From: Bolinopsis microptera
Lineage: Eukaryota > Ctenophora > Tentaculata > Lobata > Bolinopsidae
Direction: 5' to 3'
Assembly (NCBI RefSeq): GCF_026151205.1
Contig: NC_087084.1
Location: 11,249,453-11,313,452, forward strand
Length of the DNA stretch: 64,000 nt
Shown here piece after piece: positions 16,246-50,901 of the stretch (its first letter is position 1; every line of letters starts with the position of its first letter). A program made the position numbers and the translations under genes. The notes beneath the pieces were generated by a model that worked only from the letters and a program-made list of their open reading frames with translations, did no database searches and had not been told where the DNA came from.

Positions 16246-16249
16246 TTAC

Positions 16250-19944: not shown

Positions 19945-20052
19945 ATGGATCATCGAATGGTGAGAGACTGAAATCCATGTTTACTGGAAACGCTAAAGGT
20001 AAAGTTATTGCTGAGGTTCATTTTGAGGACGAAACCTAACTCTTCTTACAAG
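19945..20052 (+). pseudogene. Orphan GFP-like first exon (arm 2 copy)
   Basis: Same exon as 15459-15563, here with several indels. ATG at 19945 and donor after 20052 are both preserved (AAG|GTAGTC, one base short of GTTAGT). Confidence 0.6.
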
Positions 20053-21285: not shown

Positions 21286-21379
21286 GATAGCCTGAGATCC
21301 CCTAGGTAACCTTATATTATTATAAACTTGTCGTATGATACTCGTCTAAATTTCGTCGAAGTTAGCGCGCGCGCTTTTG

Positions 21380-22380
21380 CTTCTCGTAATGGACCCCGAC
21401 GGCAAGTGCTACGACAGCAAGTGCTACGACGGCAATTGCATACGAAGTAGCGCGCGCTGGGCCAAGAGCCAGTAACTATAGTTATATAAAAACTGGATTT
21501 ACCGACAAAAAATGATTTTTTAAATTATTAATTGCAGAGGAAATGTACTCTTTAAATGTGAAAAAGATTTTCCCAACATCAAACATTTGTTGATGCAGTC
21601 AATCAAAAAACCTGTTTGCTGTAGAATTTGCTGCGACGTTACAAGGACAATTTTGAAAAACTTACTACTATGTACTAGCCATAAAACTGCGCGTTTTGCT
21701 CTTGGAAAATCACACTTTTTTAGAGATTCTTACGGCCGTATCTCTAAAAATCACCTATTTGTTTTAATTTTAGGGAGGGGCGTCAACTAGGGGATAGGAT
21801 CAGGGGGGGCGCACAAGTGGAGGTTTTACAACCCTACCAGTACCAGGACGTGCGCGAGGTGGACTCGTCGACGGTCTGATATATGGAATAGATATTTTAC
21901 AAGTTCACCCGTTAAGCGCTTACAGCAACGTTACACCATGAATGTGCGATCAAGTCGACTAAAAGTAAAATGATAGCGGCACGAACTATATATACTTCAT
22001 AGAATTTAAAGATTATCATCTACCTAACCTGTTAAGTTTAACGGGTGATACTCGTAAAAATTTGTTTCAAATCAGGACCGTCAGACGAGTCCAACTTTGA
22101 ACTCGGCGCGCGTCTTGGTAGGTTTATAAAACCTACTAAAACCTAGCTTGCTATAGTATAGTATAAGATGTTGTTTGCTTCTATAGGTTCTCTCCACGTA
22201 ATTTTACTTTCCTGTTCAAGAAGCGCTGAAAAGAGCGCACAGGGAAACTGGCGTGTCAGGTAATCTTCTGTAAACCAAAACGGGTGCGATTGGCCGTAAA
22301 ATATTTGTTTCAAAATCCAGTGATCACGTCGTCGACGAGTTTAACTCGGCGCGCGTCTTGGTAGTTTTAAAATTTCAGAT
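21380..22380. mobile_element. Nested MITE cluster (arm 2)
   Basis: Counterpart of arm 4 42420-43440: GC-rich AGCGCGCG blocks flanking copies of a 15-bp GACGGCAAGTGCTAC repeat, then a fragment of the GGCGCC-rich hAT-like MITE, then inverted copies of an about 90-bp motif containing GTCGACG and CGCGCGTCTTGGTAGG. No coding frame is credible here. Confidence 0.6.
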
Positions 22381-24190
22381 CTCGAGTAAGGCCGAGCGTG
22401 AGTTTGAGAACGATTTTGTTATCCTTCGTATAAGGCAGTAAGTGCCGAACGTTAGGTGACATGTCCGTATTATTTCCCATTTTTGTTATACATTTGCCTA
22501 GTTTCATTTTGTATTTGTAACTGTGCTGTCGAGAAGCCGTGATGCTCCTCCAAACTAACAAAATCGGTTTTTATAATTTACAAAATCATCAAATTATCTG
22601 CCAAATATACGCGTGCTATAAGTATAATTTGACAATAAAATGTTGCGCTCGTTTGATGTTTGGCACTTTAAGCTTAGAAACACAAGTTCAATTAGATAGT
22701 GTTATATAAATTTTTTACTAGCCTGCATGATGATTTGTGATGTGCATGAGAAAAAAAATACACAATTCATTTTTTCGAGATTTGCGTAAAAGAAAAGCTA
22801 GATCATACAATAGTTTATGTTATAATTTACAATTTATTGAGGATTCCAAGTATAAGTATAATGTTCATAAAAAATTAAAATAGCGAATACTTGAGAGTAG
22901 GCGGGAATGACAGTGGTATGAACAGGCTAGCTGAGCACCACCCATCCAGTAAATTATAAGACTGCTAGTGCGCGCGTTGTAGCGCCATGCTCTATTTAAT
23001 TTGGCAGCGTTCGAGTGTGAACGCGAGAGAGCGAGAGTTAATATTTTCAGGAAGAAAAGCAGATGGGGGGGGGTGCTGAAGTTTAAAAGTCGATATTAGG
23101 GTGAAGATCGGTGTTCACGACATCCAAGGGTTCCCCTTTCCTGTTGGCAAAATTCTTACTTTGTTTTAGAATATTTTAATTGAAGTGACATGATGCGTGG
23201 CGATTATGGTTTGTAAAGTTGAGCGTTTTAAATTGAAAGTTGCAAATTCTTTTTAAAACTGCGGTAGGCTATAAGTATACGGATACCAGCCAAACCCTAC
23301 CGGCTGGGTGGTTTATCTCAAAAAAGTTTAAATACATAGAACCTTCCGGTTTTTAAGCAAGATTCCGTCTTGTAAATTTTAAAGTTAGCTCCCCACGAGC
23401 AAAATTTGGGACAAACTTAGATTCTGAATTAAACCGAAAAGTTTTGATTTTGGGCTAATAAAAGATCGCAGCCTTTTAACTTTGCAAAAGTAAAATAATC
23501 AATAGTTGTTGTCATGACTACGAGGCTAATGCAGGTGCGAAAGGTGAACTTGAGTGGAGCGCGCGGCGTGGCAAATGCGCTGTTGGAAAATCGATCATCT
23601 AGCGTAGCCGGCAGGTGGTAGGTTTTTGGGTTGAAGGAGGCTGGGGGACATTTATTCCTAAAACATCGTCGGGTCAATCATTTTATCAACGTGAATTGGT
23701 ATTAATAAAAAGGCGCGAATTGTTTTAATGCTTCGCAGCTTCATTACGATGTTTATATTTCAAAACAATTAATAGTGTACAAGTTAAAATATTTATTGTT
23801 ACCCATTTGTCCATGCTGTATTTTTAATTTTTATTTCACGTCTGATACCTAGTTTTTTTCTTAATAAAATTATTTCGTGGCTATTTGATGCTTGGTGTAC
23901 AACTCAAGTTACAAAAAAAGTTGATTTGCAAATTATGATTTTGAAATTAGTTTAGAAACAAGGCCTAGCTTCTAAGTTGAAGGGTTTGGGGAATGAAAGA
24001 GGAAATTGACCGTTTCTCTAAATGTGCTACAGAATTATATTTATATTTATATGTTATGATAGTTCATGATAGTGTTTCGCTGATCGGCTGTAAGTGCGGG
24101 GTTCCTTATATAGTTATAGTTATATTAGGCGCATGATGTTCAAGAGAGTACGATAAAACGATAGTTTCCAATACCAAGGTTTATGTATAG
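22380..24190. other. Intergenic stretch, arm 2
   Basis: About 1.8 kb matching arm 4 43440-45235. A G-rich run near 23060 (GGGGGGGG) has its counterpart in each arm. Reverse-strand frames near 23430-23680 differ in every arm and I do not accept them. No gene is supported. Confidence 0.5.
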
Positions 24191-24193
24191 GGA

Positions 24194-24475
24194 CAGTGGC
24201 GTATAAACGTTGCCTGTTGGCGCCCCCCTGTTGGGCGCCCCCTCCCTTTGGTGCCCCCTCCTAAAATTGAACAAATTAGGTGATTTTAAAGGTGACCCAG
24301 GTAAAATCTCTAAAAAAGTGTGTTAATTAGTGAAACCGTGCAGTTTTGCTAGTAGTAGTACTTTAGTTAAGGTTTACATAATTGGCCCCACATTCAAACG
24401 ACGATTTGGGGCGCCCCCCTAAGACGGGCGCCCCCTGCACAGCGGGGGTCAGCGGGGCTTTCGGGTACGCCACTG
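24194..24475 (+). mobile_element. hAT-like MITE, complete, with target duplication (arm 2)
   Basis: About 282 bp with inverted ends CAGTGGCGTA ... TACGCCACTG and GGCGCCCCC-rich subterminal blocks. The left flank reads approximately TAGGCGA and the right flank GTAGGCGA. The empty site in arm 4 (about 45232) has a single GTAGGCGA. An 8-bp target duplication with CAGTGGCGTA-like ends is typical of hAT-superfamily MITEs. It has no coding capacity. The same insertion is in arm 3 at 32236-32513. Confidence 0.8.
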
Positions 24476-25240
24476 GTAGGCGAGATTGAACTAGGCGGCG
24501 CTCAGCTGTCTTTCCGTATATGTCTCCGATCGTTTAGGAACATATGTAGCCAGGTAATAAAAAGTTAGTGATTCTACTTGTTGAAATTAGCATATAAATT
24601 CAGCGAGTTACCGAGTTAGACTGATGATCAAAGAACAGTACGAGGTGGCAGATTTATGTTACGAACATTGACCTGGATGAAAATGAGTACATATTACGGC
24701 TAAGACAAGAGCTCAGGTACCTAACATCAGAAAGAAAAGAGAGAAGCGACTGCTTCTCTGGCAATTTGATTAATTTAATTTATCTGCTGTGAAATTCGCA
24801 CTAATCGTATTTAATTCGAATTTATAATTGCATACGAATTTTTCTCTGATATGTCGCATTTAAAAAAAACTGTAGTTGTTTCACGTAGTTATTTAGGTGG
24901 TTTTGTATGGTGGAATATGCCTAAACAATAACATTTGCTTCCCGCAACCGTTCGTGGTTATGGTTAGTGACTTGAGTGGGTTACTGACCAAGACTCGAGG
25001 GGGTTACTGAAATAGACTCGAGATTGCTGCAATGCTGGTGTTTCTCACAGCCCGCAGTTTTACCGAATTTTTGCGCATTTATGGCCGATTTACTGCCTAA
25101 AATCTAAAACTTGAAGTGGTAAATTGGCGAATTGTTCGCGTATTTTTTAAGAACTCAAATGCGCCGTATTTTTTTGACGATTATTGTTTCTCCGGCTTGG
25201 GTAAATGAGAAAATAAAAACCTGGTTTAACTTTTAGGAAG

Positions 25241-26355
25241 ATGAAGTTTAAGATGAGAAGGAAATGTTTAGAGTTGACGTGAGCACAGCTCAAGTGGATA
25301 ATGGCACATTCTGCCTGCTGGTTGCAATTAATGGGGTCAATGGGAAAATCGGCCTCGTCTTCTACTCCTCTATCCGGTATAAACGCGATCGGGAATGGGA
25401 ACGGATATCCCATTGTAATGGTAAGGAAAAACTGGCAGTGGTTGTGATTGTTATTACACCCTCTGGCGGTTATTCTCTGTACCATTCCTTCGCTCGGGAG
25501 TATTTTTTGGGGGAAGTTCTACTGTTACATGTGTGTCATTTTGGGTTCTCATGGTGCTGTAAATAGCCTCACTATCCTGACCATTTACAGCCTACGAACT
25601 TAGACGATTGTCTTCCTTCACGAGTAGTTTCCAAGGAGGTTGTTCTTGTAGCCATTATTATTATCTGGATCTTCTCACTGGTGCACCAGCAATATCTTTA
25701 GGCTACAGTCTGATTTTTGTGTGCTGTTCCTAATAGCGTCGATGCCTCTCTTTACTATTTATTCAAACAAGATCGCTGCCCTTTTATTTAGGGTGTGCTA
25801 ATAATGCAGCTGTAGGTGCCACTGGTTCTCATCACAGTTTTCAACTTGGTTTTACTCTTGGTGGCTTATCGACAAAAGATGACGCTCAATCCAACAGTTC
25901 AGTTAACTTAATGGGATTGATAACCATTTTTTTCTTGTCTGGGACTGTCATTTGGCAGTCGGACTCGTTTGTGATATTTACCATTCTTAAAGGCAAAGGA
26001 ATTCAAAGTGTCCCCTGCTATGGGACCTCATGGCTTTTCACTTTTTATATCTTAACGTCTGCGGCAACCCATATTGTACACCATAACAAATAGGAGATTT
26101 GGAAAGTACGTTAATGATTGGCAGGTGGATCATATTTTGTGGGCGTATCGGCCAAAGAATCGGAACTGGTAATTCTGCTTCCAATTCTTTATAATGGCGT
26201 TACACCAGTAACTGGGCCCGACGTTCAGCATCTCTCTCCGCGAAACAACAAAAAACGACGTCCTCAAGTAATCTTCAGCTGCAACAGAAGCCACAAGTGT
26301 TATGGATCAGGCAATTAACTTTTGAGAATCCTATCAATCAGAATCTTAAACTATG
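25241..26355 (+). pseudogene. Class A-like GPCR (arm 2 copy, frameshifted)
   Basis: Collinear with 46031-47124. Here the start region reads ATGAAGTTTAAGATGAGAAG, which suggests the true protein may begin about ten residues before the Met used in arm 4. Pieces are readable in different frames, for example the helix 1-2 loop, the helix 6 FFLSG stretch and the Ser/Thr-rich tail. Single-base indels break the frame many times, mostly additions next to a repeated base, as expected for raw long-read error. Confidence 0.65.
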
Positions 26356-27556
26356 ATGAACAAGTGTCCTTTTGGTAAAACTGTCAAATCCTATTGTGAT
26401 AGTAGCGCAAAAAAAATAAAATAATCAAAAATTGCTTCTGCTTTCAGGATTTTTTTGATGAATTTTATGATTATTGTAGGTAATATCTGAATTCAGAATG
26501 GAATTATATGGCTGTTTTAAAAAAGTTTCTTAGATTTTCTGCAATCGGAATAGTCTCCTTGACTCTGAAGTTTCATCAAAATCGAAAAACATTTAATACT
26601 TTTTACTGCTTTGCAAAATTCTTACTTTTACTCAGGAAATTAAAAACTGTCAAAAAACTCCTGTTCTTATTGTCATGTCATTGAGACTGTGGAAGTTGCT
26701 CACTTGACTAAGAATACGTTCCTTTTTCTGTCTCTACTCCTAGAAAACCTACTTAAATTAATTCTCATTCGGTGGTCAGCAGGTCGAAGGCGCACACTAC
26801 GTTACTTTAACTAAAAGAGGTACCTGTCTACGTCTGTAGAACGCCTTCAAAATTAAATGTAATAAGTAATTATAGCTTTGTGTCCTCTTTGTTGTAAGCT
26901 GAATTCGGTGGACTATGAGTGAATGCCATTCAATGAGTGAACATTAACAATATGTTGGATTTATTGGAAAACCGCTATTGTTTTCAGTATTGGAAGAATT
27001 GGGAATTAAATTTAAGGGACAACAGTTCTTACTCAAATAATTTTCTGAAAACATATTTCAACCCGGAATGGACAAACTATGATCTGAAAAATTCCTGAAA
27101 TACCAACAAATGCAAACTTAAAGAACAAAAAGAACATTCCATGATATATCGTACTCTCTGACGTGCCCGTTAATAGTTCTTGATGACGTTTTTGATGTTG
27201 TAAATTTGTTTGTGAATAGATCTATCATATGTGAACACTAGTTCAATAAATTTCGATCCATCTATTGAACCAAAAGAGGTTATATGGTTTCTACTTTTCT
27301 GGTGGTTCTTAATTGAAACAGCCCTTAGATTTAGTGTTTTCAACTAGTATTATACAGTTACACTTGACCACGCGTAGACAACCATAGTCATGATCATAAT
27401 TAAAAAGTGGAAGGAAGTGAATTAAACGGGAACATTTCCGTTATATCCATTTTATGGCCCAGAATTTTATGGCTAAAATATTAATAGATACTTATGATGA
27501 GCGAGCATATAAACTGCATATCTTAATACGTCTTTTTATTTTTCCTACGACCGATC
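26356..27556. other. Spacer between GPCR and GFP-like exon 1 (arm 2)
   Basis: Starts with the A-rich 3' end of the GPCR (AATAAAATAATC near 26415) and continues without credible frames. Collinear with arm 4 47125-48245. About 90 bp near 27350-27440 are present here and in arm 3 but shortened in arm 4 near 48105. Confidence 0.5.
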
Positions 27557-27656
27557 ATGGAGGAACGAATGGTTAGGGGCAAGTTCGAGTATCAGTGGGA
27601 TACTAAAAGTAAAAGTAATTGTGATGTTCATTGTGTGGAACGATTCTTCTTACAAA
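27557..27656 (+). pseudogene. GFP-like exon 1 (arm 2 copy), cut off from the rest of the gene
   Basis: Begins ATGGAGGAACGAATGG and ends at TACAAA|GTTAGT as in arm 4, with indels in between. The arm turns back at about 28034, inside intron 1, so this copy has no exons 2-6. Confidence 0.6.
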
Positions 27657-28019
27657 GTTAGTGGAGGGAAATGTTGCTCAGTTCGCTTTTCGGGCGATTC
27701 CGTACTCATTTGTTCCAGACTCGACACGGAAAACAGCTCGAAAGTGGCAGAGTGGAGAAGGTAGAGTGGCTATGAAAAAGTGGCAGAGTGGCAGAGTGGC
27801 TATGAACTGCAATGTTTCATTTAAAGCAGCTCGATTTGCTTTGAAAATATTTAATCGAGTATTACGTGCACGAACAAATGGTCAATTAAATTTGTGTTTA
27901 ACTTTATCGTAAATATAGCGTTTACCGTCCAAAATTCCATTGTTCCTACATTTGACGATGAATCGTGCCTCAAGCGGACGGCGTGTGTCTGAGGTTGCAA
28001 GGGTCGTCGGTCTAGCCCT

Positions 28020-28050
28020 AGGGTTACAGGCGTCAGGTAGCCCGGGACTT
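28020..28050. other. Asymmetric fold-back junction (arm 2 / arm 3)
   Basis: Up to about 28034 the sequence follows arm 4 forward to its base 48729, inside a short repeat containing GGCGTCGCGTCT. It then jumps to the reverse complement of arm-4 base 49477 in GFP-like exon 3. About 750 bp are therefore present in arm 3 but not in arm 2. A plain missed hairpin adapter would give a symmetric turn; an uneven one fits a fold-back priming chimera or a true inverted duplication with a spacer. Confidence 0.75.
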
Positions 28051-29208
28051 CATGCCATCAGTAAACTTCCCTCCAGTTTAGTTCATTGAGCAGGCAAATC
28101 CTGGTGTTGAAAAAGTCTCACCATAGTCCTGACAAAGATTTAATCGCTGTTCTACTTTACTAATATACACTAACAAATTGCAATGAACTACACAATGTTA
28201 AATGAGCAAATGCTCGGAAACACATTATGTGTCATTAATTGTTAATAACAGCAAATACTGGTGGAATCTTTTTGGATCTACACAGCTGTCTCAGGAAATT
28301 ATTTCTAGTGTAACTCAAAATGGTATACCTGTGTATTGGGTAAACATCGGAGTTAGTCTGAATAATGGTTACCACAATATGAAGTTGATTCGGTAGAGGG
28401 GACTGTTACAGTTCAGTACAGATTTCTGACATCCGTCAAGTGGTTGAGCAAATCCTTCTCTGTTACCTGAAGAAGTAAACAAATCAACTATTGGTCATTT
28501 TCTTGGATTTAGCGTAAGGTAGCAGCTTCACGATTATGACGAAGATCTAATCGTGAATGTTAACTAAATGGTACCTCCACGTTCGCGTAGTGTCGCTGAA
28601 GGGTAGCATAGTTTGGTAATAGTTATAATGGTTCTCTTTCCCGGATGGAGAAACAAAATAAGAATAAAAAACGAATGCCACGCAGAGGTCTGGTACGTGG
28701 ATAAATCTTTGTATTGCAACCTATAACTTTATTTAGATCGTCGGCCTTGTAACCCTTGGGCTAGACGCGAGCCTTGCACCCTAGACTCGACGCTTTCCGA
28801 TTGAGGCACGTTTCATCCGTCAAATGTAATGAACAATGAATTTGGGACGTACGCGTTTATTTACGATAAAGGTTACACAAAGTTAATTTGACATTTGTTC
28901 GGGCACGGTAATACTCGATTAATATTTCAAAGCAAATTCGGCTGTTTAAATGAAAACATTGCAGGTTTCATAGCCATTGCCACTCTGCCACTTGTTCATA
29001 GCCACTTACCATTCTGCACTCTGGCCACTTGGCGAGTGGTTTTTCGTGGTGGTTCTGGAAAAATTGATTACGGGATTCGCCGTATACGAACTGAGCAACA
29101 TTTTCCTGACTTACTTTGTAAGAAGAATCGTCTCAAAATGAACATTCAGCAATTATTTATTTTAGTATTCCACGTTCTCGAACATGCCTATCCATTCGTT
29201 CCTCCTGA
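28034..29208 (-). pseudogene. Arm-3 copy of the GFP-like gene, exons 1 to 3 (3' truncated)
   Basis: Exon 1 about 29115-29208, exon 2 about 28329-28466, exon 3 from about 28129 down to the junction at 28034, reverse strand. Exon 2 again has the codons for Ile-Ile-Gln-Thr-Asn at the chromophore position. Exon 3 is cut after roughly 95 bp and exons 4-6 are absent. Frame breaks are single-base indels. Confidence 0.7.
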
Positions 29209-30408
29209 TCTGGCGTAGGAAAATAAAAAGACGTATTAATGATATGCAGTTATATGCTCGCTCATCATAAATATCTATTAATATTTTAGCCATTAATTAT
29301 TCTGGCCAATAAAATGGATATACGGAATTCCCGTTTAATTCACTTCCAGCTTTTTAATATGTATCATGACTATGGTTGTCGTACCGTGGTCATGTGTATA
29401 ACTGTATAATACTATGTTTGAACACTAAATCTAAGGCTGTTTCAATTAAGAACCACCAGAAAAGTAGAAACCATAAAACCTCTTTTGGTTCAATAGATGG
29501 ATCGAAAATGTATTGAAAAGTTGTGCACCTATGATATATCTATTAAAACAAATTTTACAACATCAAAAACGTTCATCAGAACTTATTAATGGCACTTCAA
29601 GGAGAGTACGATCTATCATGGAAGTCTTTTGTTTTTAGTTTGCATTTGTTGTATTTCAGGAATTTTCAGATCATTGTTTGTCCATTAGCTGGGTGATATA
29701 TGTTTTCAGAAAATTTTTTTGTGTAGGGACTGTGTCCATTAATTGGTTAATTCACAATTCTCCGAATCACTTGAAACATCGCGGTTGCAAGAAAATTAAG
29801 TTTGTTAATGTTCACTCTTGGCATGCTCACTCATAGTCCACCGAGAATCAGTTATCAAACAAAGAGGACATCAACGCTCTATATATAGCTATAACATTTA
29901 ATTTTGGATGGCTGTTCTAAGACGTAGGACGTGGTTCTTTTGGTTTAAAGTTAACGTAGTTAGCGCCGTCGACCTGTGACACCGAATGGTGGGAATTATT
30001 TAGTAGGTTTCTTGGGTAGGAGACAGACGAAAGGGAAACGTATTCTTGGTTCAAGTGAGCAAGCTCCACAGTCTCTCAATGACATTGAAAATAAGCACAG
30101 GAGTTTTTGACAGTTTAATTTCCGAGTATAAGTAAGAATCTTTGCAAAGCAGTAAAGTTTTAAATTGTTTTTCGATTTTGATGAAATCTTACAGAGTCAA
30201 TGAGACCAATTCGAATGCAGAAAAATATAGAATAACTATTTTAAACAGCATATAATATACATTCTGAATGCTGATATGTACCTACAATACTCTAAAATTC
30301 ATCAAAAAAAAATCAAGAAAAGGCAGAGCATTTTTTTTTTATTTTTATTTGTTTGGCGTTACTATCACAATAGGTTTGGACAGTTTTCCTGGTAACGTGT
30401 TCATCTTA
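29209..30408. other. Spacer between GFP-like gene and GPCR (arm 3)
   Basis: Reverse complement of arm 4 47125-48245 with minor indels. No gene is visible. Confidence 0.5.
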
Positions 30409-31475
30409 GTTTTAGATTCTTGATTGATAGATTCTCAAAGTATATTGCCTGATCCATTAACATTGTGGCAGTTTTGTTTGCAGCTGGGATGATTACTTGA
30501 GGGAGTCGTTTTTGTGATTCGGCGGAGAGAGATGCTGACGTCGGGGACCCAGTTAAATGGTGTAACGCCATTAGAATTGGAAGAAGAATTCCCAGTTCCG
30601 ATTCTATTGGCCGTACTCCTACAAAATTGTCCTCCTTGCAGATCTTTACGTACTTTCCAAATCTCCTATTTGTTCTGGTGTACAATATTGGGTTGCGCAG
30701 ACTTAAGATATAAAAAGTGATAAGCATGAGGTCCCTAGCAGGGGGACACTTGAATTCCTTTGCCTTTAAGGAATGGTAAATATCACAAACGGAGTCATGC
30801 ATGCAATGAAAGAGGTCCAGACAAGAAGGAAAAGGTTTTCAATCTTTAAGTTAACTGAAACTGTTTGGATTTGTGCTTCATCTTTTGTGATAAGCCACAA
30901 GAGTAAAACCAAGTTGAAAACTGTGATGAGACAAGTGGCACCTGCTGAATTATTTAGCACAGCTTAAATAAAAAGGGCCGATCTGGGTTTGAATAAACTG
31001 TAGAGAGGATCGGTAGCGCTATTAGGAAAACACAAATCAGACTTGTAGCTAAAGATATTGCTGGTGCAGCCATTGAGAAGATCCAGATAATAATAATGGT
31101 CATGAACAGACTCCTTTAAACTACCTCGAGAGGGAAGACAATCGTTCTAAGTCGGTAGGCTGTAATGGGTCAGATAGTGCGGCTATTTACAGCACCAGTG
31201 ATGAACCCAAAATGAGCACAATGTAACGTAGACTTCACCAACATATACCTCCGAGCGAAGTATGTGGTAGCAGGAGGAATTACGCCGGAGGGTGTATAAC
31301 CCTGTCCACCACTGCCAGGTTTCCTTACCAGTACATGGTATCCGGTCCAGGTCTATCCGTTATACCGGATTAGAGGAGTAGAGACGAGGCCGTTTCCATT
31401 AGCCCCATTATGCAACCAGCAGCAGAATGTTGCAGTGGTAATCATTGAGCTGTGCCTCAGTCGTCAACTCTACAT
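30409..31475 (-). pseudogene. Class A-like GPCR (arm 3 copy, frameshifted)
   Basis: Reverse-strand counterpart of 46031-47124. The longest readable piece (30401-30802) covers helix 7 and the tail in a mixture of frames and still shows NPILYT-TNRRFGKYV. Another piece covers the helix 5-6 loop and part of helix 6 (30766-30960). The indels differ in position from those in arms 2 and 4, so they look like independent sequence errors. Confidence 0.65.
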
Positions 31476-32235
31476 TTCTTCTCATCTTAACCGTTATTTC
31501 TAAGTTAAACAGGTTTTTAATTTCTTATTTGGACCAAGGCCGGAGAACAAATATTCGTCAAATACGGCGCATTTAGAGTTCTTAAAAAATACGCGAACAT
31601 TCGCAGCTTTACTACTTCAAGTTTTAATTTGTTAGGGCTGTTAATTCGCCAATAAATGCGCAGAAAATTGGTAAACTGCGCTGTGGGAAACACGCAGCAT
31701 TGCAGCAATCTCGAGTCATTTCAGACCCTTCGCGTCTTGGTCAGTACCACGTTGTCCACTAACAGAACACGTACGTGTTGGGGAGCAAGGTATGTGTTTG
31801 GCAATATTCCTCCAACAAAAACAACTATGATATCGTGAATACAACTACAGTTTTTTTTTAAATGCGGAAATTTTAGAGGAAAATTCGTATTGCGAATTTA
31901 ATTGAATTATAGTTAGTGCGAATTTACAGCAGATAAATTAAATACTCAAATTTGCCAGAGAGCCGTCTCTCTCTCTCTTTCTTTCTTTATGTGTGGTACT
32001 TGCTCTTGTCTTAGCCGTGATATGGTAACTCATTTATTCCAGGTCAATGTCGCATTAATAATCTGCACCTTCGTACTGTTCTATTGATCTTTCAGTCTAA
32101 CTCGGAACTCGTTGAATTTATTATGCTAATTCATCAAGTAGACAACTAAACTTTTTATTTACCTGCTTCAGTGTCCTAAACGGATCGGTGACATATACGG
32201 ATGACAGGCTGAGCGCCGCCTAGATCAGTTCGCTA
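31476..32235. other. Spacer upstream of the GPCR (arm 3)
   Basis: Includes a short CTCTCT/TTTCTTTC tract near 31965 and blocks shared with arm 4 at about 45300-46000. No gene is supported. Confidence 0.5.
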
Positions 32236-32513
32236 CAGGGCGTAACGAAGGGCCCCCTGACCCGAGTGCAGGGGCAGCGTCTTAGGGGGGCGCCACATCA
32301 GTCGTTTGAATGTGGGCCAATTATGAAAACTTAACTAAAGTCTACAAAAAAATACTAGCAAAACTGCACGTTTTGCACTTAGATACACATTTTTTTAGAG
32401 ATTTTACCGGGGTATCCTTTTAAAATACCTAATTTGTTCAATTTTAGGGGAGGGGCACCAAAAGGGAGGGGGCGCCAACAGGGGGCGCCAAAACAGGCAA
32501 CGTTACGCCACTG
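32236..32513 (-). mobile_element. hAT-like MITE (arm 3 copy of the same insertion)
   Basis: Reverse complement of 24194-24475 at the same site. The end TACGCCACTG is intact at 32504-32513 and is followed by TCGCCTA, the target duplication. The other end is noisy (CAGGGCGTAA). Its presence in arms 2 and 3 and absence in arms 1 and 4 marks two structural types. Confidence 0.75.
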
Positions 32514-34280
32514 TCGCCTATACATAAAACTTGTATTTGGAAAACTATGTTTTATCGGTATCATATGAACATCATGCGCCTAAATATATACTATAAATAT
32601 AGGGACCGCAACAGCAGATCAGCGAAAACCTATCATGAAACTATTATAACATATAAAATTATAAATTATAATTCTTGTAGCACATTTAGAGGGAAACGGT
32701 CAATTCCTCTTTTTCAGTTTCGCAAGCCTGGCAACATAGTGTAAGCTAGGCTTGTTTCTAACTATTTCAAATTTCAGATTTTGAAATCATTTTTGTACTT
32801 GTGTTGTACCACCAAGAGCTATTAGCCACGAAAAAATAAGTTTGATTTAAGAAAAACTGAGTAATACGACGTGAAATTAATTTATTTTTACAGCATGGGA
32901 CAAATGGTTAACGATAATTTTTTTTATTGTACACTATTAATTGTTGAAATTAAACAAGTAGATGAGCTGCGAAGCATTCAAAACATTCGCGCTTTTTTTA
33001 ATTACCAATTACGTGATAATGATTGCCTTGTCGATGTTTAGGAATAGAATGTCCCACAGCTCTTCAACCAGAAACCTTACACCTGCGGGTCGCTAGAGGT
33101 GAGCGATTTTCAAAGCGCATTTGTCCTCGGCGCGCGTTCATCAAGTTCACCTTTCGCACGCTGCATTTAGTAGTAGTCATGAAACAAAGTTTTTATTATA
33201 TTACTTTGCAAAGTTAAAAGGCTGCGATCTTTTATTTCGCCCAAGATCAAACTTTTCGGTTTAATTCAGAATCTAAGTTGTTCCAAATTTTGCTCGTTGG
33301 GGAGCTAACTTTAATTTTACAAGACGGAACTTTGTTAAAAACCGGAGGTTCTATTATTTTACTTTTGAGATTAAACCCAGCGCGGTAGGGTTTGCTGGGT
33401 ATCCGTATACTTTAGCCTACGCGAGTTTAAAAGAATTTGCACTGTCATTGTAAAACGCTCACTTGACAAACCTTAACTCGCCACGAATCAAGGTACCTTC
33501 AATTTAAAAATTTCTAATACAAAGTAGAGTATTTGCCAACAGGAAAGGGGACCCTTGGATGGGGTCGTGAAAACGCGATCTTCACCCTTATAGTCGAAAT
33601 TTTAAAACTTCAGCACCCCCCCCCATCTTGCTTTCTTCTTCTGAAACTATGAACTTCTGGCTCTCTCGCGTTCACAGCTCGCGCGGCCAAATTAAATAGT
33701 GCATGCGCTACAACGCGCGCACTAGGCAGGTTATAATTTTCTGGAGGGTGGTGCTCAGGATTGCCTGTCATACCACGTCATCGCTAATCCTCAAGTATTT
33801 CTATTTTATTTTTTGAACATTATACTTAAGCTTGAATCTCAGATAAATTTAAATTATAATAAACTCAATGGTATGATTCTGAGATTTTCTTTTACGCAAA
33901 TTTGAGTATATTTGAATTGTGATTCATGCCTCAATCACCAAATCATCTGGGCATAGTATAAAAATTTTTATTAGACAACTATCTAAATGACCTTGTGGTT
34001 CTAAGCTAAAGTGCCAAACTTCAAAACGCGCACATGTAAAATTGCAAATCTATAATTATAGCACGCGTTTGGCAGATAATGATGATTTGTTAAATTTTAA
34101 ACCTGATTTTTGTTTGTTTGAGGAGATCACGGCTCTCGACAGTCAAAGTTCCAAATACCAAAATGAAACTGGCAATGTGATAACAATAAATGGAAAATAA
34201 TACGGACATGTGCACCTAAGTTTCGGCATTATGGCCTTTTACGAAGGATACACATCGTTTCAAAACTCACGTCGGCCTTA
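32514..34280. other. Intergenic stretch, arm 3
   Basis: Reverse complement of arm 4 about 43450-45230, including the C-run near 33616 and the CTCTCTCGCG block. The forward frame at 33023-33217 is not conserved between arms and I do not call it. Confidence 0.5.
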
Positions 34281-35330
34281 CGCGAGATCTGAATTTTAAA
34301 CTACATGAGCGCGCCGAGTTAAACTCTCGACGGTCGTGATCACTGATATTTGAACAAATATTTTACGGCTATCACCCGTTTTGGTTTACAGGATGATTAT
34401 CCTGTCACGCAGTCCCCCTTGGTGGCTCTTTTTTCAGTAGCTTCTTGAACAGGAAGTTGACAATTACGTGAGAGAACCTGAAGAAAACAATAATTTTTAC
34501 TATACTAGCAAGCGGTTTTGTTGGTTTATAACCTACTCAAGACGCGCGCGAGTTCAAAGTTGGATCGTCGACGGTCCTGATATTTGAAAAAAATATTTTA
34601 CGAGTATCACCGTTAAACTTAAGCATAGGTTAGGTAGTGATAATCGTCTTAAATTCTTTGTATGTTTATATTAGTTCGTGCCGCTTATCTTTTTGACTTT
34701 ATGGTCGAATTGTCGCACAATTCATGGTGTAACGTTGCCTGTTAGCCTTAAACGGGTGATACTTGTAAATTATCTATTCATATATCAGGGACCGTCCGGG
34801 ACGAGTCCCAACTCTGCGCCGTCCTGTATTGGTAGGTTGTAACTACAAGTTGCGCCCCCTTGATCCTATCCCCTTTTGACGCCCTCCTAAAAATTAAACA
34901 ATTAGTGATTTTAGAGGATACGACGGTAAAATCTCTAAAAAAGTGTGTTTCTAGAGCAAAACGCGCAGTTTTGGCTAGTACATAGTAGTAAGTTTTTCAA
35001 AATTGTCTTGTAACGTCGCAGCAAATTCTACGCAAACAGGTTTTTTGTGACTGATGCAAACAAATGTTTTGTGTGGGGAAATTCTTTTTTCACCTTAATA
35101 GAGTAAGTTTACTGCATTAAGGTATTTTAAAAATCATTTTTTGTCGTAAGATCCTGTTTTTTATTAACTATTGTTAATGGTCTCGGCCCAGCGCGCGCTA
35201 CTTCGTAGCACTTGCGTCGTAGCACTTGCTGTCGTAGCACTTGCCGTCGGGCCATTTCAGAGAAGAAGCGGCGCGCGTATTCGAAGAAATTTAGACGAGT
35301 AAATACGTCAAGTTTTATAATAAAAGGTTA
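34280..35330. mobile_element. Nested MITE cluster (arm 3)
   Basis: Reverse complement of arm 4 42420-43440: three copies of the about 90-bp GTCGACG-containing motif (near 34290-34390, 34540-34615, 34745-34835), the GGCGCC-type MITE fragment, and three units of the 15-bp CTACGA-type repeat near 35205-35250. Confidence 0.6.
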
Positions 35331-35354
35331 TGGGGATTCGGCTATCATTGTTCA

Positions 35355-35965
35355 TTAACATAGTTAGAGGCGGTCCGTGTAGGCCTTACCACTGTGCTTT
35401 CAGCAATTCAAAACGTATTTCCGTGGCTGTGCTTTGCAATGCGCCTAGTCTACTGAATGATTTCTTCGGAATATCGTGGATTGTACAACTTTCGTTTGGT
35501 AGATTCACAACAAGGAAATTTTCCTTTGGTTGGTAATATACTCAAGGATGGAAAGTATAGGTATTGGATATGCCCCGCTTACCTAGTTATAAGCTCTTTA
35601 TTAGTCTGCTACACGGCTGTAAAAAGGGATTGGCTAGGTTAGAGTGCGGTCCGTGTAGGCCTTACATGTGCTTTCAGCAATTACTTCATAAGTATTTCCG
35701 GGCTGTGGTTGCAATGCGCTAGGTCTACTGGAATGATTTCGGAATTTCGTCGGATTGAACTTTCGTTTGTTAGATTCCAAAACACAAGGAAATTTTCCTT
35801 CGGGTTGGTAATATATCAATGATGGAGTATAGTGTATTGGCTATGCCCCGGCTTATAGTTTAGCTCTGTTAGTCCCGCTACACGGAATGTAACAGGGATT
35901 GGTTGTTAGAGGCGGTCGTGTAGCCTACAACTGTGCTTTCAGCAATACTCATAGAATCTAGAGAT
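35355..35965 (-). repeat. About 300-bp tandem repeat (arm 3)
   Basis: Two full units and a partial one, each opening GCGGTCCGTGTAGGCC and containing GGAAATTTTCCTT. Reverse complement of 20670-21285; missing from arms 1 and 4. Confidence 0.75.
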
Positions 35966-36566
35966 TCGGCGGAATTACAGGCTGAGCGCCGGCCAGTAAA
36001 AATTATGTTACAGCTAAAAACAGCGTATTTTGCCCATCTTGCAGTTGCCCCATTTTCATCACTATATCAACTTTAAATCTACATTATCAACTCCGATATC
36101 CACAAATTTTTTGGACAGTTATGAAAGCTTTAATTTGAAGGTCTTTACCAATTTTTCAAATTGATCTTATTCAAGAAAACCGGGAGTTGACAGAACAATA
36201 TGACATAAAATCAACGAATTTCGTCTATTACGCGACTTTTACACTACTTTTGCTCAAAAGCCGCGCACCAACAATATGGCACATAGGCGGAAAACTTTCC
36301 TAATCTTTTCAAAAAGGTATACAAATTTGGTTACTGTGAAAATTTCACAGTCTTCTAGAATTAGAAAACGTCATGGTCAAAATTTTTGAAAATCGAGCAA
36401 GTTATTTTATCGTGCACCCTGGAAAGATTGAAGAGCAAATTTGATATACTTATACTAGTACATGGGCTGTTTTGCGTAGCTCGTACGATTTCGTTGAAGC
36501 AGCGACGACCTTAGTTATCCACAAAAACATAATGACTAGAGGAATTTGTTTGCCTTTATTGACTAC

Positions 36567-36666
36567 CTTGTAAGAAGGTTAGGTTCGTCTCATAATGAAC
36601 TCGCAATAACTTTACTTTTAGCGTTCCAGTAAATTGGGATTCAGGCTCTCTCATTCGATGATCCAT
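36567..36666 (-). pseudogene. Orphan GFP-like first exon (arm 3 copy)
   Basis: Noisy reverse-strand copy of the exon at 15459-15563. ATG and the donor region remain recognisable; several missing bases break the frame. Confidence 0.6.
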
Positions 36667-36985
36667 GTTGCTTTCGTTTATTTAGAAATATGAAGTGTTT
36701 ATTCGATATCATTGATATGACAAAAAATGTTCAAGACACCAATCAATAAAATTCGCCGTTAAAAAATGGTTGCGCGCCCAATAATGATGTTCATGGCGGA
36801 TGCTACCGGCATGCCAAAATACTATTGTAATATGTAATGTGTGCGGTTTTCTTTCCATTGGCATTTATGTACAACTTTGAGCTTTGTATAACTTACAGAA
36901 TTACTGTTCAAAAAATAATCTATTCTGTTGCTTTCTGCATTAGGAAATGAGGGTTAACAATGCAAATATAATCGTATCTTTCGTC

Positions 36986-37373
36986 TTACATCTTTATTTC
37001 AGAAACACAATGTATCATAACACGCAGAGCTGCTGTCTGTTCTATAAAATAGTCAACATAAAAAGCAACAAACAGTAACACCAGGACAGAGAACGGAACA
37101 AAACCCAATATCCCAATTGCAATCCACACCCATATGGACTGTGGTGTGATAAATAATAGGGTAATGAGTTTGGTGGTTGCGGGTTTGACGTTTAACAAGT
37201 TGGGGGAAGTGGCCGGATGGATGGATTGCGGAGTACTTACATTAACAATGCAACTCGGTTATCACAATCGTGCAGTTTTCTCTTCCTTTAACCCACAATT
37301 TTAACTGTCGGGTTAAAACGGTGAGTTGGTTTAGGATGTCACCTGGTATGTGATTTTACCGTTTATCGCTGAG
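36986..37373 (-). CDS. Single-helix membrane protein, last two exons (arm 3 copy)
   Basis: Exon about 37241-37373, then the last exon from 37139 downward, reverse strand. The frame 36986-37198 reads straight through the hydrophobic helix (around IWVWIAIGILGFVPFSVLVL) and continues past the stop used in arms 2 and 4 because of one or two base differences, so the true C-terminus is uncertain. AATAAA lies at 36991-36996. See 39781 for the best statement of the exon pair. Confidence 0.4.
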
Positions 37374-37374
37374 T

Positions 37375-37929
37375 CGGAACAAAAAGAAGACAAATATTAT
37401 TAATCAAATTAATTTTAAATGTAGATATGTCTTCAGCTATTTGTCTAGCATATTCATTAGCTAAAAGTAAATACATTTGATTGCCTTACACGTCACTGTA
37501 CAGTTATATAACTCGGGTATTATAAATAACTAAACATTAACAATTTACATTACAGGCAATAATTAAAAATAAAATTTACTAAAATGTAATAGTTAACTTT
37601 GATTAAACTAAAACTACAAGGAGATGCAAACAAAAATGGTTGTTCATATGTCACAAAATACGGAACACTCAAAACTATGTGCTTACACGTAAAAACGTGT
37701 TAATCATTAATTATTTAAACTATGTCTGGTATTTACTTAAAATAAATGTCTGATATGAAACTAATGAAAATAACGGTCCACGGTCTATTTTGTTGCATTT
37801 AACTAAGAACTATATTAAAGTATCAGGATTCGCGAGGCAACTCATAATCATGATAATGAACATCTCACTTCATTTCAAAACAAGATTTACTCGAATTTTG
37901 AACCCCGCGAACACCACGTGATGTCCACA
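37375..37929. other. AT-rich spacer (arm 3)
   Basis: Matches 16250-16816. Part of it (about 37745-37929) belongs to the roughly 540 bp that are missing from arm 4 at 39422. No gene. Confidence 0.5.
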
Positions 37930-38825
37930 TCATGATTCAGACTCCAGCTGCGGCACTTTCTTCAATCGTTCCTTGTTAAGGAGTTGTATTTTGTCAGCTA
38001 TGTATGCCGAGCGCTGCCAGGTTCTCCAGCCGTGAAAGTTTGGGGCAATCCGAGGTCTCCACACGGACTGAAAGAAGATATTTTAGAACTAGAGATGAAT
38101 TGTGAAGGAAAGATTCAAGGTTAGATTAGAGAGTTAGAGGCGAAAGTATATTTTTCGTGGAGCTCAATTACATTATCTGAGCTGGAAACTTTTACACGGA
38201 GGAAACTATTGAAAATTTATAAAAAAAAAACTTGTAAATAATAAAACATCACATATCACTATCAGATCTTCAAGTTTAAAACACCGTTCTTCTCACCAGA
38301 GACTGAGACACATCGTTAGTGTTCCTAGCGTTGTCCAGTATCTCAGTTGACAGGTCGTCTATTTGGAGTCCCAAACTCGCCCGTTGTTGCTCCAATATTT
38401 CATCGTAGCTGTTTATCTGCAGGGAGATAAATTATTGTTTTTAAACTCATCGCCAATTCATTTCAATCAATATGCATTCATATCTACAATGTATTTATAC
38501 AATTTGTCACATGTACAAAATATATAATTATATTATGTTTGTACCTTTTTAGAATAGGAAAGTTTGACGGATCCTGAAGGCAGATCGTTCAGTTTCTCTA
38601 TCTTATTCTCCAGATAATTTGATCTCAGAGAGTCACCAGGAGTTATCAGCGTGGGACAGTTCCTCCGCAGAGTACTCTGTTCTAGCGGTCTCCAGGCCTA
38701 GTAACAGCTGGTGAGGGAGAAGCCAATGCTAGGTTTCACTCCTCTCATGGTCAACCAGTCCGTTCACTACGTTGTATTTCTCTGACTTGGACCTGCCCAG
38801 AGACAGGGCATACTCCCACGAGTTG
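37930..38825 (-). CDS. Coiled-coil protein, 3' exons A-C (arm 3 copy)
   Basis: Exon A 38545-38825, exon B 38297-38416, exon C 37930-38067, reverse strand. Junctions are canonical: CCCCAG before A, AAG|GTAC after it, CCCTGCAG before B, CTG|GTGAGA after it, TTTCAG before C. Exon B reads cleanly for 40 codons, and A to B joins in phase 0. The C-terminus is PQLESES then TGA. This copy gives the best picture of the gene after arm 4's exon A. The protein is acidic-basic helical, with no transmembrane helix and no recognisable domain name. It is truncated at its 5' side by the palindrome centre. Confidence 0.5.
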
Positions 38826-41020: not shown

Positions 41021-41284
41021 AGCACAGTAATAGTTATTTTGAACAGTAATTACTGTGTGTATTAGCCAATGCTAGTCAAAGTATTACACATAAGCCAAGG
41101 AAAGAAAACCACACTATTACCATTTAATTTGCATGCGGGGCAAACGCCCATAAACTATAATGGGGCGCAACCATTTTTTAACTCGAATTTTATTGATTGC
41201 CTGCCGTGAACAATTTCTTGGTCATTGATCAATGATACTGAAAGTAGACACACTTTCAATTCTAAGAAATCAGAAGCACAGGAC

Positions 41285-41374
41285 ATGCAATGGAAGGCTG
41301 AATCCATGTTACTGAAACGCAAAAGTAAGTTATGCTGAGGTTCCTTTTAGGAGCCAATCCTGTTACTTCTTACA
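41285..41374 (+). pseudogene. Orphan GFP-like first exon (arm 4 copy, scrambled)
   Basis: Short matching blocks (GCTGAATCCATG, TGCTGAGG, CTTCTTACAAG) in the right order show the exon is here, but it is poorer than in any other arm. It lies in the same low-quality zone as 40270-42050. Confidence 0.5.
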
Positions 41375-42050
41375 AGGGTACAAAAGCGACTAACTAGTCA
41401 TTATGTTGGGATAACTTGAGGTCAGTCGCTCTTCAACGAATCGTAGCCAGCCTACGAAAAAGCTCCAGTGTACGATCGCGAATAAGTTAACAATTCTCGA
41501 ATCTAAATCTTCAGTGGTGCGCATAAAACCATAAGCCTCGGATTTTCAATTTGTTTACCGAAGATTTTTAATTCTAGAACTGGAGTCTTACTAGTACAAA
41601 TTTGATTACCTTTGGAAAGATTAGTGATTTCGCCTATGTGCCATATTAGATGGTGCGGCTTTTGGACAAAGTGTGTAAAATTCCGTAATTTGCAAACTTA
41701 TTTTGCAATTATCGTCAATCTCGTTTCATTGTAAGACGTCAAGTTTTGAAAATTGGGGACCATCCAATAAATTTCACACTTCGAAAAATTTAGGTGGAAA
41801 ATGAGTTTAAATACTTAATAGTAAATGTATTAAAAGTGGAAAGATTCCGCAAATGGGGCAAAATAGCTGTTTATTAAGCGTAACAAACTTTACTGGCTGA
41901 TTTGGCTCGACTAAGTCATTTCCGCAAAACTTCTACTATTCTAGCAAAATGTAGATAATATCTAAAAGCCTGTGTTAACAAATTTTGAGGTTGCCATAAA
42001 TCTAATTTTTAATTTTTGGGGCAACAGGGTAGCTTAGGTGCGCAGTAGGT
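41375..42050. other. Low-quality intergenic stretch, arm 4
   Basis: Follows arm 2 20053-20640 block by block with many differences. No gene. Confidence 0.5.
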
Positions 42051-46030: not shown

Positions 46031-47124
46031 ATGTTAGAGTTGACGCTGAGCACAGCTCAAGTGATACCACTGGCAACATTCTGCCTGCTGGTTGCAATAA
46101 TGGGGCTCATGGGAAACGGCCTCGTCTTCTACTCCTCTATCCGGTATAACGCGATAGACCTGGACCGGATATCCATTGTACTGGTAAGGAACCTGGCAGG
46201 TGGCGGACATGTTATACACCCTCCTGGCGGTAATTCCTCCTGCTACCACTTACTTCGCTCGGAGGTATATTTTGGGTGAAGTCTACTGTTACATTTGTGC
46301 TCATTTTGGGTTCATCACTGGTGCTGTAAATAGCCTCACTATCCTGACCATTACAGCCTACCGACTTAGAACGATTGTCTTCCCTCTCGATGTAGTTTCA
46401 AGGAGGTCTGTTCATGTAGCCATTATTATTATCTGGATCTTCTCAATGGCTGCACCAGCAATATCTTTAGGCTACAAGTCTGATTTTGTGTTTGTTCCTA
46501 ATAGCGCTCGATGCCTCTCTACTATTTATTCAAACCAAGATGCTGCCCTTTTATTTAGGGCTGTGCTAATAATGCAGGCTGTCGTGCCACTTGTTCTCAT
46601 CACCTTTTTCAACTTGGTTTTACTCTTGGTGGCTTATCGACAAAAGATGAAGCACAATCCAAACAGTTCAGTTAACTTAAAGGGATTGATAACCATTTTC
46701 TTTTTATCTGGACTCTTCATTTGCAGTCTGACTCCGTTTGTGATATTTACCATTCTTAAAGGCAAAGGAATTCAAGTGTCCCCTGCTATGGACCTCATGG
46801 CTTTTCACTTTTTATATCTAAATGTCTGCGGCAACCCAATATTGTACACCATAACAAATAGAAGATTTGGAAAGTACGTTAAAGATCTGGCAAGGAGGAT
46901 CATATTTTGTGGGAGTACGCAATAGAATCGGAACTGGTAATTCTGCTTCCAATTCTAATGGCGTTACACCAGTAACTGGGCCCCGACGTCAGCATCTTTC
47001 TCCGCCGAATCAACAAAAACCGACGTCCTCAAGTAATCTTCCAGCTGCAAACAAGACTGCCACAAGTGTGATGGATCAGGCAATAACTTTTGAGAATCCT
47101 ATCAATCAGGAATCTAAACTATGA
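46031..47124 (+). CDS. Divergent rhodopsin-like (class A) GPCR, single exon, two single-base frame breaks
   Basis: Seven-helix receptor of about 364 residues. Helix 1 has GNGLV (Asn29), helix 2 NLAVAD (Asp59), helix 3 a disulphide-type Cys86. In place of DRY there is Tyr110-Arg111-Leu112. Helix 6 has FICSLTPF in place of CWxP, and helix 7 ends GNPILY followed by RRFGKYV. The tail is rich in Ser, Thr and Asn. There is no lysine in the retinal position of helix 7, so it is not an opsin. The ligand is unknown; cnidarian peptide or amine receptors are the obvious pool. One extra G near 46196 and one shift near 46915 split the frame; arms 2 and 3 break elsewhere, so the native gene is probably intact. 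The start at 46031 is tentative; arm 2 allows about ten more residues. An A-rich AATAAAAATAAAT block follows at about 47178. Confidence 0.85.
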
Positions 47125-48245: not shown

Positions 48246-50901
48246 ATGGAGGAACGAATGGATAGGGGCAAGTTCGAGTATCGTGGGAATACTAAAAGTA
48301 AAGTAATTGCTGATGTTCATTTTGAGGACGATTCTTCTTACAAAGTTAGTCGAGGGAAAATGTTTGCTCAGTTCGCTTTACGGGCGATTCCCGTAATCAT
48401 TTGTTCCTGACTCGACCACGAAAACCAGCTCGACAAGTGGCAGAGTGGCAGAATGGTAGAGTGGCTATGAACAAGTGGCAGAGTGGCAGAGTGGCTATGA
48501 ACCTGCAATGTTTCATTTAAAGCAGCTCGATTTGCTTTGAAATATTTAATCGAGTATTACCGTGCCCGAACAAATGGTCAAATTAAATTTGTGTTTAACC
48601 TTTATCGTAAATATACGCGTACCGTCCCAAATTCATTGTTCATACATTTGACGGATGAATCGTGCCTCAAGCGGAAGGCGTCGTGTCTAGGGTTGCAAGG
48701 CGTCGCGTCTAGCCCTAGGGTTACAAGGCGTCGCGTCTAATAAGTAATAGAGTAATAGGGTTGCAATAGCCGAAAGTATTACCTAGCGTACCAAGACCTC
48801 TGCGTGCATTCGTTTTTATTCTTAATTTTGTTTCTCCATCCGTGAAAGAAGAGAGCCATTATATACTATTACCAATACTATGCTACCACTTCAGCGACAC
48901 TACGCGAACGTGGAGGGTGACCATTTAGTTAACATTCACGATTAGATCTTCGTCATAATCGAGAAGCTGGCTACCTTACGCTAAATCAAAGAAAATGAGC
49001 CAATAGTTGATTTGTTTACTTCTTCAGGTAACAGGAGAAGGATTTGCTCAACCACTTGACGGATGTCAGAATCTGGAACTGAACTGTAACAGTCCTCTTC
49101 CGATCAACTTCAATATTGTGGGAACCATTATTCAGACTAACTTCCGGATGTTTACACAATACACAGGTATACCATTTTGAGTTTACACTAGAGAAATAAT
49201 TTCCTGAGACAGCTGTGTATATCCAAAAGAGTCCACCAGTATTTGCTGTTATTAGCAATTAATGGACACATAATGTGTTTCCGAGCATTTGATCAATTTA
49301 ACATTGTGTAGTTCATTGCAATTTGTTAGTGTAATATTAGTAAAGTAGTAACAGCGTTATATATTTGTCAGGAACTATGGTGTACGACTTTTTCAAAACC
49401 GGATTTCCTGGCTCAATGAACGTAGAGCTGGAGGGGAAGTTTACTGATGGCATGACAGTCCGGGCTACCTGTACTCTCACCCATGTTAAGGAAACTCTTA
49501 TCTGCAGGTACTTGTCGGTTACTGCCTTATATGGGCATGACTTGTCGGTTACTGCCTTATATGAGAGTATGAGTATGACTTGTCGGTTACTGCCTTATAT
49601 GGGCATGACTTGTCGTTACTGCCTTATATGGGCATGACTTGTCGGTTACTGCCTTATATGAGAGTATGAGTATGACTTGTCGGTTACTGCCTTATATGGG
49701 CATGACTTGTCGGTTACTGCCTTATATGGGCATGATTTGTCGGTTACTGCCTTATATGAGAGTATGAGTATGACTTGTCGGTTACTGCCTTATATGGGCA
49801 TGACTTGTCGGTTACTGCCTTATATGGGCATGATTTGTCGGTTACTGCCTTATATGGGCATGACTTGCTACTGCCTTATTGAGGTAGTTACATGGGCATG
49901 CCGGCTTGTTACTTATTATTTGTTATTTAACCGCAATTTAAGCTGATTACGCACTGGGGGTCATTTGACATTTGATTCTTTCAAGTAAATCTCCGATTTA
50001 AAAAAAAGAACCCATTTAATCCTCGAAATGTTATCCCAACAAGCTCAGAAAACTCAGTAAGTTTACACCTACTTCAGGTGTCAGGTGCATTTTGAAGGTG
50101 TGGGGGAGGAAAGCCTGGCTAAATCAGAGGATCTTAGTCAGACCATGCCCTGCTTTGAGGTCGTGGACAAGGGAGACAAGGCTGATGAGGCACTGACCAA
50201 TATTGATCTCGTAAGTTTGTGCACTTTTTATCGCTGATTTAATTCTCATTGCTCATCGCGGCCGTTGTGGAGGGAGGGAGGGATTTATAGGGCGTTTGTC
50301 ATCTCCGCAATCGTTTTAACTAGTTATTCTTATCATAGTAACGTGTTACTGATCAAAACCAACCCATTTTAAATTCAACAATAGCTAACTTCTTGCACGG
50401 AGTTATTTGAATATTATTCCTCTTTCCATTGGCAGGTTTGGAGAACAGGAAGCGGAAGCTACAGCTGCAGGCTGAACAGTCTCATCAAGTGCGCTGGAAA
50501 CTTCGCTCCTCCTTTCCATTTCATAGGTTGGTATTTCATAAGTTTCTTTTTCGTTGTTTATTGTTTACATTGATTTAACTTTAAGAAATCTAATATTTAT
50601 GTACCTGGCTATTTTTTATTTTATCATTACAATGTTGAATGTACGAGTTCGGAGTTTCTCATGTAATTTAAATGTTAAACTCTTTCTTCTTCTTTTGTTA
50701 ATACTTTTACAACTTATATCACAGCTACCTGATTACTGTAGACGTTTTATTGTCATCTTTATTTTAATTCCTGTTTAACTCTTGTTTAATTATCCAGGAC
50801 ACGAGTATAAGCTGACAGAAAAGTCTGAGAACAATCTACACTTTGCCCAACGTCAGAAGTCTCGAGGAACAGTCATTAACTACTACAAGAACAGTAATTA
50901 A
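48246..50901 (+). CDS. GFP-superfamily protein lacking a chromophore (six exons, intact)
   Basis: Exons 48246-48344, 49028-49166, 49372-49507, 50078-50210, 50436-50526 and 50798-50901. All junctions are GT..AG and all phases agree, giving 233 residues (GFP has 238). GFP landmarks appear in order: VTGEG at the start of exon 2, PLPINFNI before the central helix, FRMFTQY after the chromophore site (fluorescent proteins have xRxFTxYP), DFFK at 85-88, PPFHFIGH before the last strands. The chromophore tripeptide is Gln69-Thr70-Asn71, not X-Tyr-Gly. The Arg96 position is Leu99 and the Glu222 position is Gln217. Cyclisation and oxidation should therefore be impossible. There are eight cysteines and no signal peptide, so it is probably cytosolic, with an unknown binding or structural role. 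Arms 1 and 3 agree on Gln-Thr-Asn. A possible AATAAA lies at about 51425. Confidence 0.9.
48440..48505 (+). repeat. GTGGCAGAGTGGCAGA short tandem repeat in intron 1
   Basis: Units of 9-11 bp (GTGGCAGA, GTGGCTATGAAC) alternate over about 65 bp. The copy number differs in arms 1-3. Confidence 0.7.
48672..48741 (+). repeat. About 25-bp repeat in intron 1 at the fold-back breakpoint
   Basis: Three units containing GGCGTCGCGTCTA and GGGTTRCAA. Arm 2 stops following arm 4 exactly within this repeat (28020-28034), so it is the left breakpoint of the arm 2/3 fold. Confidence 0.75.
49508..49880 (+). repeat. 30/38-bp minisatellite starting at the exon 3 splice donor
   Basis: Eleven full units and one partial unit of CTTGTCGGTTACTGCCTTAT plus either GGGCATGA or GAGAGTATGAGTATGA. 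The array starts within three bases of the donor GTACTTGTCGG, so the intron 3 donor belongs to the first unit. The unit lengths follow the pattern 30, 38, 30, 29, 38, 30, 30, 38, 30, 30, 30. A related stretch lies at 53055-53130 and the arm-1 remnant at 1800-1967. The units are direct and have no unique spacers, so this is not a CRISPR array. Confidence 0.95.

Follow-up and report, generated by a model that had tools for sequence, protein, structure and literature searches.

A gene of the ctenophore Bolinopsis microptera raises the question of what a relative of green fluorescent protein does with Gln-Thr-Asn at the site of the chromophore-forming X-Tyr-Gly, and what the further copies beside it in the assembly are. 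The gene lies in a stretch of 64,000 nucleotides, referred to here as the window. Taken as a whole, the evidence is best explained, with high probability, by an FPL (fluorescent-protein-like) orthologue of the GFP superfamily, whose product is not expected to be capable of forming the GFP chromophore.

Joining of the six exons between 48246 and 50901 on the window sequence (Table 1) gave 702 nt ending in a TAA stop, encoding 233 residues, and all five introns have GT..AG boundaries. This confirmed six in-phase exons with intact frame and splice sites, as proposed in an earlier sequence-only reading. Its residue assignments also held. The X-Tyr-Gly site is occupied by Gln69-Thr70-Asn71 (codons CAG ACT AAC), the Arg96 position by Leu99 (CTG) and the Glu222 position by Gln217 (CAA); alignment with 4dxi places QTN over its QYG, L99 over the Arg of WER and Q217 over the Glu of LYEH. 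A tandem array at 49510–49867, with a 30-base unit and a 98-base higher period (98% alike), begins directly after the GT donor of exon 3. Scanning of the window against Rfam at gathering scores gave no match. Downstream of the gene, a 43-base unit is repeated about 18 times, with 94% matches, over 55891–56660, followed by a long CT run at 56949–57217, and a 66-residue stop-to-stop frame at 62716–62916 on the plus strand (...LRGLQKSDSATYFCQEG...) resembles, by eye, part of an immunoglobulin domain.

Table 1 Features of the FPL locus and its neighbouring arms, in window coordinates
Feature	Position	Strand	Remarks
Arm 1	1..17745 (right end approximate)	-	Probable error-rich inverted re-reading; extends past the left edge of the window as far as a run of 100 N
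Arm 2	17745..28034 (left end approximate)	+	Probable error-rich direct re-reading; stops before exon 2
Arm 3	28034..38580 (right end approximate)	-	Probable error-rich inverted re-reading; limited to exons 1 and 2 and a portion of exon 3
E1', arm 1 reading	15459..15563	-	MDHRMERAESMFTGNAKSKVIAEVHFEDEPNSSYK; open frame, GT donor, phase 0 end; 7/7 fixed motif positions
E1', arm 4	41278..41380 (start estimated from alignment)	+	Error-rich; aligns with gaps to the open copy, matching the arm 1 reading at 82% over 41289-41380
Rhodopsin-type GPCR frame	46200..46925	+	7tm_1, 1.8e-17; between E1' and E1, same strand
FPL exon 1 (E1)	48246..48344	+	ATG, MEERMDRGKFEYRG..., phase 0 end; 5/7 fixed positions of the published N-terminal motif
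FPL exon 2	49028..49166	+	VTGEG, PLP, Gln-Thr-Asn 69-71
FPL exon 3	49372..49507	+	DFFK, Leu99 (Arg96 position)
FPL exon 4	50078..50210	+	Spliced join
FPL exon 5	50436..50526	+	PPFHFIG
FPL exon 6	50798..50901	+	Gln217 (Glu222 position), stop

A phmmer search of PDB sequences with the 233-residue protein returned 589 distinct sequences at E ≤ 1. Among the best 60 of these the leading matches were coral fluorescent proteins, with 1xss at the top (5.4e-14), so that homology to fluorescent proteins lies far beyond chance and the relation originally claimed is borne out. The Pfam GFP profile (PF01353) gave no match to the protein at E ≤ 1, below the curated cut-off, while a control coral fluorescent protein sequence scored 1.1e-44; the gene product is therefore a distant relative and not a fluorescent protein proper. 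The X-Tyr-Gly, Arg96 and Glu222 that together mark GFP proper were not found in it, nor did the Pfam scan match it to the nidogen G2F profile (PF07474) at E ≤ 1. The genome (264,652,675 bases in 232 contigs) was also searched with PF01353 and with a coral fluorescent protein query, each without a match; since both searches missed the FPL locus too, they tell nothing about the absence of true fluorescent proteins.

A family with these properties was described in 2016 and found in each of 30 ctenophores according to the abstract, or in nearly every ctenophore examined according to the introduction (Francis et al. 2016, PMC4997694). In that account the Mnemiopsis FPL tripeptide is QTN, every other ctenophore keeps its first Gln, other residues stand at the Arg96 and Glu222 positions in every ctenophore FPL, and the N-terminal motif is given, as an approximation, as MxxRMERxxxxFxG. 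FPL likeness was judged against this published description, the named sequences of the family being KT964712–KT964739. The present protein combines homology to fluorescent proteins, QTN with Gln first, Leu99 and Gln217 at the two catalytic positions, and a ctenophore host; in all probability it would be a ctenophore FPL orthologue, as judged from its sequence. All matches of two FPL queries in the genome (9 of 9 and 6 of 6) fall in the window. Novelty of the protein as a chromophore-less GFP relative is not supported, as the family is already known, and both its QTN and the loss of the two catalytic residues are in print (PMC4997694). That paper also leaves it undecided whether FPLs lost a chromophore or never had one, so that to speak of "replaced" residues is an overstatement. 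It was the sole paper found to carry the gene name ML181711a in the literature searched, and, judged by titles and the openings of abstracts, no other work dealing with FPLs was found besides it and a modelling paper from 2022.

The host was examined through its receptors. A glutamate-receptor search gave 32 matches in the genome, from which 12 loci were taken, two being searched against the PDB and two aligned. One of the aligned loci (L023) was identical to segments of ML032222a at 81 of 101 and 99 of 129 positions, and the other (L017) at 88 of 116 and 91 of 129; we take this PDB chain to be from Mnemiopsis leidyi. It was the best PDB match of L021, and for L019 it stood further down a list headed by a kainate receptor. 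The genome thus carries a ctenophore-type receptor. The cnidarian host supposed from sequence does not stand: receptor identity to ML032222a, the collagen IV linkage described below and the fit to the FPL family all point to a ctenophore. A cnidarian origin of the gene was likewise rejected, on receptors 70–80% identical to ML032222a and on the FPL residue losses.

The first 49.5 kb of the window hold four copies of the locus in alternating direction, the fourth being the clean locus itself. Pairwise comparison by gap-tolerant alignment over about 2.9 kb gave 1.78, 2.04, 1.60, 2.20, 1.20 and 1.30 indel events per substitution for the six arm pairs. One-base indels formed the majority in all six (175/192, 187/204, 202/353, 268/319, 209/378 and 222/395). 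Simulated divergence gave 0.18 indels per substitution with substitutions only, 0.26 with mild indels and 4.03 with indel noise. An earlier MAFFT alignment of the arms, with substitution rates of 0.146–0.262, apparently scored indels as substitutions, and the gap-tolerant alignment was used instead. Over 45240–48107, 2162 of the 2861 columns compared agree in all arms; private differences number 280 in arm 1, 154 in arm 2, 171 in arm 3 and 2 in arm 4, and the remainder comprises 42 columns split two against two and 50 mixed. Arm 4 itself is noisy left of about 43.5 kb, where 56 of its 63 private differences within 42343–45234 are found.

Two explanations of the arms were weighed. Real inverted and direct duplicates, forming a palindromic FPL/GPCR array with pseudogenes, would account for the alternating arms as assembled. 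The stretches of arm 1 left unaligned to the clean locus (1–1717 and 2306–6061), together with its lack of any match to exons 4–6 or 49995–51443, could then reflect real structural difference, and real copies that are nearly identical might have been badly polished. This reading is nevertheless highly unlikely. It runs against the indel-to-substitution ratios of 1.2–2.2 in six of six pairs, far from the simulated values for ordinary divergence, and against the near-absence of private differences in the clean locus; on these two grounds the arms were rejected as paralogues, and the proposal that they are duplicate copies falls. Ten bases beyond a run of 100 N at -4766..-4667, presumably a scaffold gap, an inverted copy of 51449–55521 begins (80% alike), which also speaks against real duplicates, as does the published use of wtdbg, TGS-Gapcloser and pilon for the B. 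microptera assembly (PMC10232365). PacBio CLR, HiFi and Iso-Seq libraries are reported there for three species jointly (Schultz et al. 2023, PMC10232365), and B. microptera appears to have been read by CLR.

We conclude from the sequence comparison that the arms almost certainly re-read the same DNA with many errors; the simplest route would be a fold-back or gap-filling read left unpolished where a contig ends. A search for the PacBio adapter gave no match of more than 12 bases, and passage through a missed adapter is therefore only inferred. The turning points differ, the end of arm 2 matching 48732, the start of arm 3 matching 49471 and arm 1 reaching 55.5 kb. Both observations could be taken in favour of real duplicates; given the differing turning points, gap-filling or misassembly may contribute. 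The arms provide no independent evidence for QTN: the tripeptide is readable in arms 1 and 3, as first noted, but the one-base indels and the almost complete lack of private differences in the clean locus deny them the status of independent copies. A dN/dS among them would measure sequencing error. Window positions 1–43400 and positions 11244700–11249452 of the same contig (C13), about 43 kb and a further 4.7 kb to the left, look like unpolished inverted and direct re-readings, and gene predictions there are consequently unreliable. The roughly 43 kb of assembly beside the gene should not be taken for real duplicates.

A sequence resembling exon 1, termed E1', occurs in all four arms, 7.0–8.5 kb from the exon 1 copy of the same arm and about 7 kb upstream of FPL exon 1. 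This candidate second first exon is new in this analysis. It is known from error-rich sequence, with an open frame in arm 1 only and indels disrupting arms 2–4. Both E1' and E1 end in phase 0, which makes it plausible that they are alternative first exons feeding the same exon 2, a possibility that we hold somewhat short of even. Use of a single first exon, with E1' a dead duplicate or E1 a decayed copy and the mRNA starting at E1', has close to an even chance. It would fit the better agreement of E1' with the approximate FPL N-terminal motif (7/7 fixed positions, against 5/7 for E1) and the limitation of E1'/E1 similarity to 123 nt, the exon and short flanks, although errors on the E1' side could hide weaker flanks. 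Against it, pS 0.39 and pN 0.18 over 32 codon pairs, and 0.29 and 0.05 over the last 18 (0.53 and 0.35 over the first 14), hint in a tiny sample that both exons are constrained, and a GPCR frame lies between them. No exons 2–6 of a second FPL stood out between E1' and E1 in the arm consensus.

Collagen IV NC1 exons were found at C13:11332689–11417300, 32–117 kb downstream of the FPL gene, among 48 matches in all, the others being on C1, C10, C12 and elsewhere on C13. Of 12 collagen loci taken, seven, which overlap to make four places, were examined, and Gly-X-Y runs were present in all seven, one of them (L037) having only one short run. The first four digits of Mnemiopsis (ML) gene names presumably denote the scaffold, so that FPL and collagen IV share ML1817. 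The genes concerned are ML181711a for the FPL (PMC4997694) and, for collagen IV, ML18175a (PMC10876535, PMC5395295) and ML18176a (PMC10876535). We read this as linkage conserved between Bolinopsis and Mnemiopsis, which places the present gene at the same locus as the Mnemiopsis FPL. One narrow literature search gave a single paper, on collagen IV, in whose listed entry FPLs were not named.

Given known chromophore chemistry, light emission or colour by the FPL protein is very unlikely, and a retained non-optical role is plausible, in agreement with PMC4997694. A 2022 AlphaFold2 study took 21 GFP-like proteins that form a chromophore and 23, from ctenophores and nidogens, that do not; all modelled sequences are reported to have folded as 11-strand barrels, and the central-helix geometry of the non-formers was unlike that of the formers (PMC9202861). 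By extension from these models, FPLs included, the present protein would fold into a barrel of 11 strands whose central helix is ordinary. FPLs in print are predicted to carry neither a secretory nor a mitochondrial signal, and the protein would be expected to stay in the cytosol, where its surface or its cavity may serve for binding or as a scaffold. Gln69, whose position is reported as invariant across ctenophores, might be a core residue with a structural part or in contact with a ligand. Binding by the retained barrel appears the most likely role, both by elimination and from the parallel with nidogen G2, and we give such a binding or scaffold role, with a hypothetical partner, an even chance.

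Other readings of the gene were considered alongside this one. Recent decay of a chromoprotein gene of cnidarian or lancelet type might be suggested by the coral fluorescent proteins that head the structural-database matches. It is barely credible in view of the intact frame and splice sites, the ctenophore host and the occurrence of the same residue losses across ctenophores. A non-GFP chromophore or other backbone chemistry at Gln-Thr-Asn, such as Asn-based cyclisation, would be in line with the invariance of that Gln among ctenophores, which places the site under constraint (PMC4997694). With equivalents of Tyr66, Gly67, Arg96 and Glu222 all absent, and with the differing central-helix geometry of the modelled non-chromophore proteins (PMC9202861), this chemistry is extremely unlikely. 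A collagen- or basement-membrane-associated GFP barrel, representing a pre-fluorescent binding use of the fold, is suggested by the proximity of FPL to collagen IV in two ctenophores and by the collagen-binding nidogen domain of GFP fold; its chances are very slim, the linkage being weak alone, both species lobate ctenophores and FPLs in print predicted to have no signal peptide. To our knowledge, no clear nidogen has been reported in ctenophores. The G2F profile gave no match in the genome and none in control genomes, which therefore says nothing on absence.

The preferred reading remains a ctenophore FPL that may use its barrel for binding. FPLs bear on the origin of fluorescence, as either a GFP fold kept from before fluorescence or one that lost its chromophore. 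To this the locus adds a complete chromosomal FPL gene with its neighbours and candidate second first exon, and its value beyond what is already in print is the corrected picture of the locus, that exon and the collagen IV linkage.

Among known systems, the anthozoan fluorescent proteins (1xss, 4p76, 4dxi and others) show detectable sequence homology, over residues 31–210 in the best match, but the FPL protein differs in having neither XYG nor Arg96 and Glu222, and in its lack of a Pfam GFP match. Among GFP genes, those of lancelet and Nematostella have an intron at codon 32 in common (PMC2467403). Nidogen G2 (G2F, PF07474) is a GFP-type barrel without a chromophore that binds perlecan and collagen (PMC4997694), an architecture of the kind proposed for the FPL protein; it is a domain of a large matrix protein, whereas the FPL protein has no G2F match. 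Closest are the ctenophore FPLs, including Mnemiopsis ML181711a, which share the sequence relation to fluorescent proteins, QTN for XYG, and replacement of Arg96 and Glu222. From their charged N-terminal motif exon 1 departs at two of seven positions, with a better-matching first exon upstream, and the Mnemiopsis gene carries the same scaffold number as collagen IV, just as a collagen IV cluster lies near the gene here.
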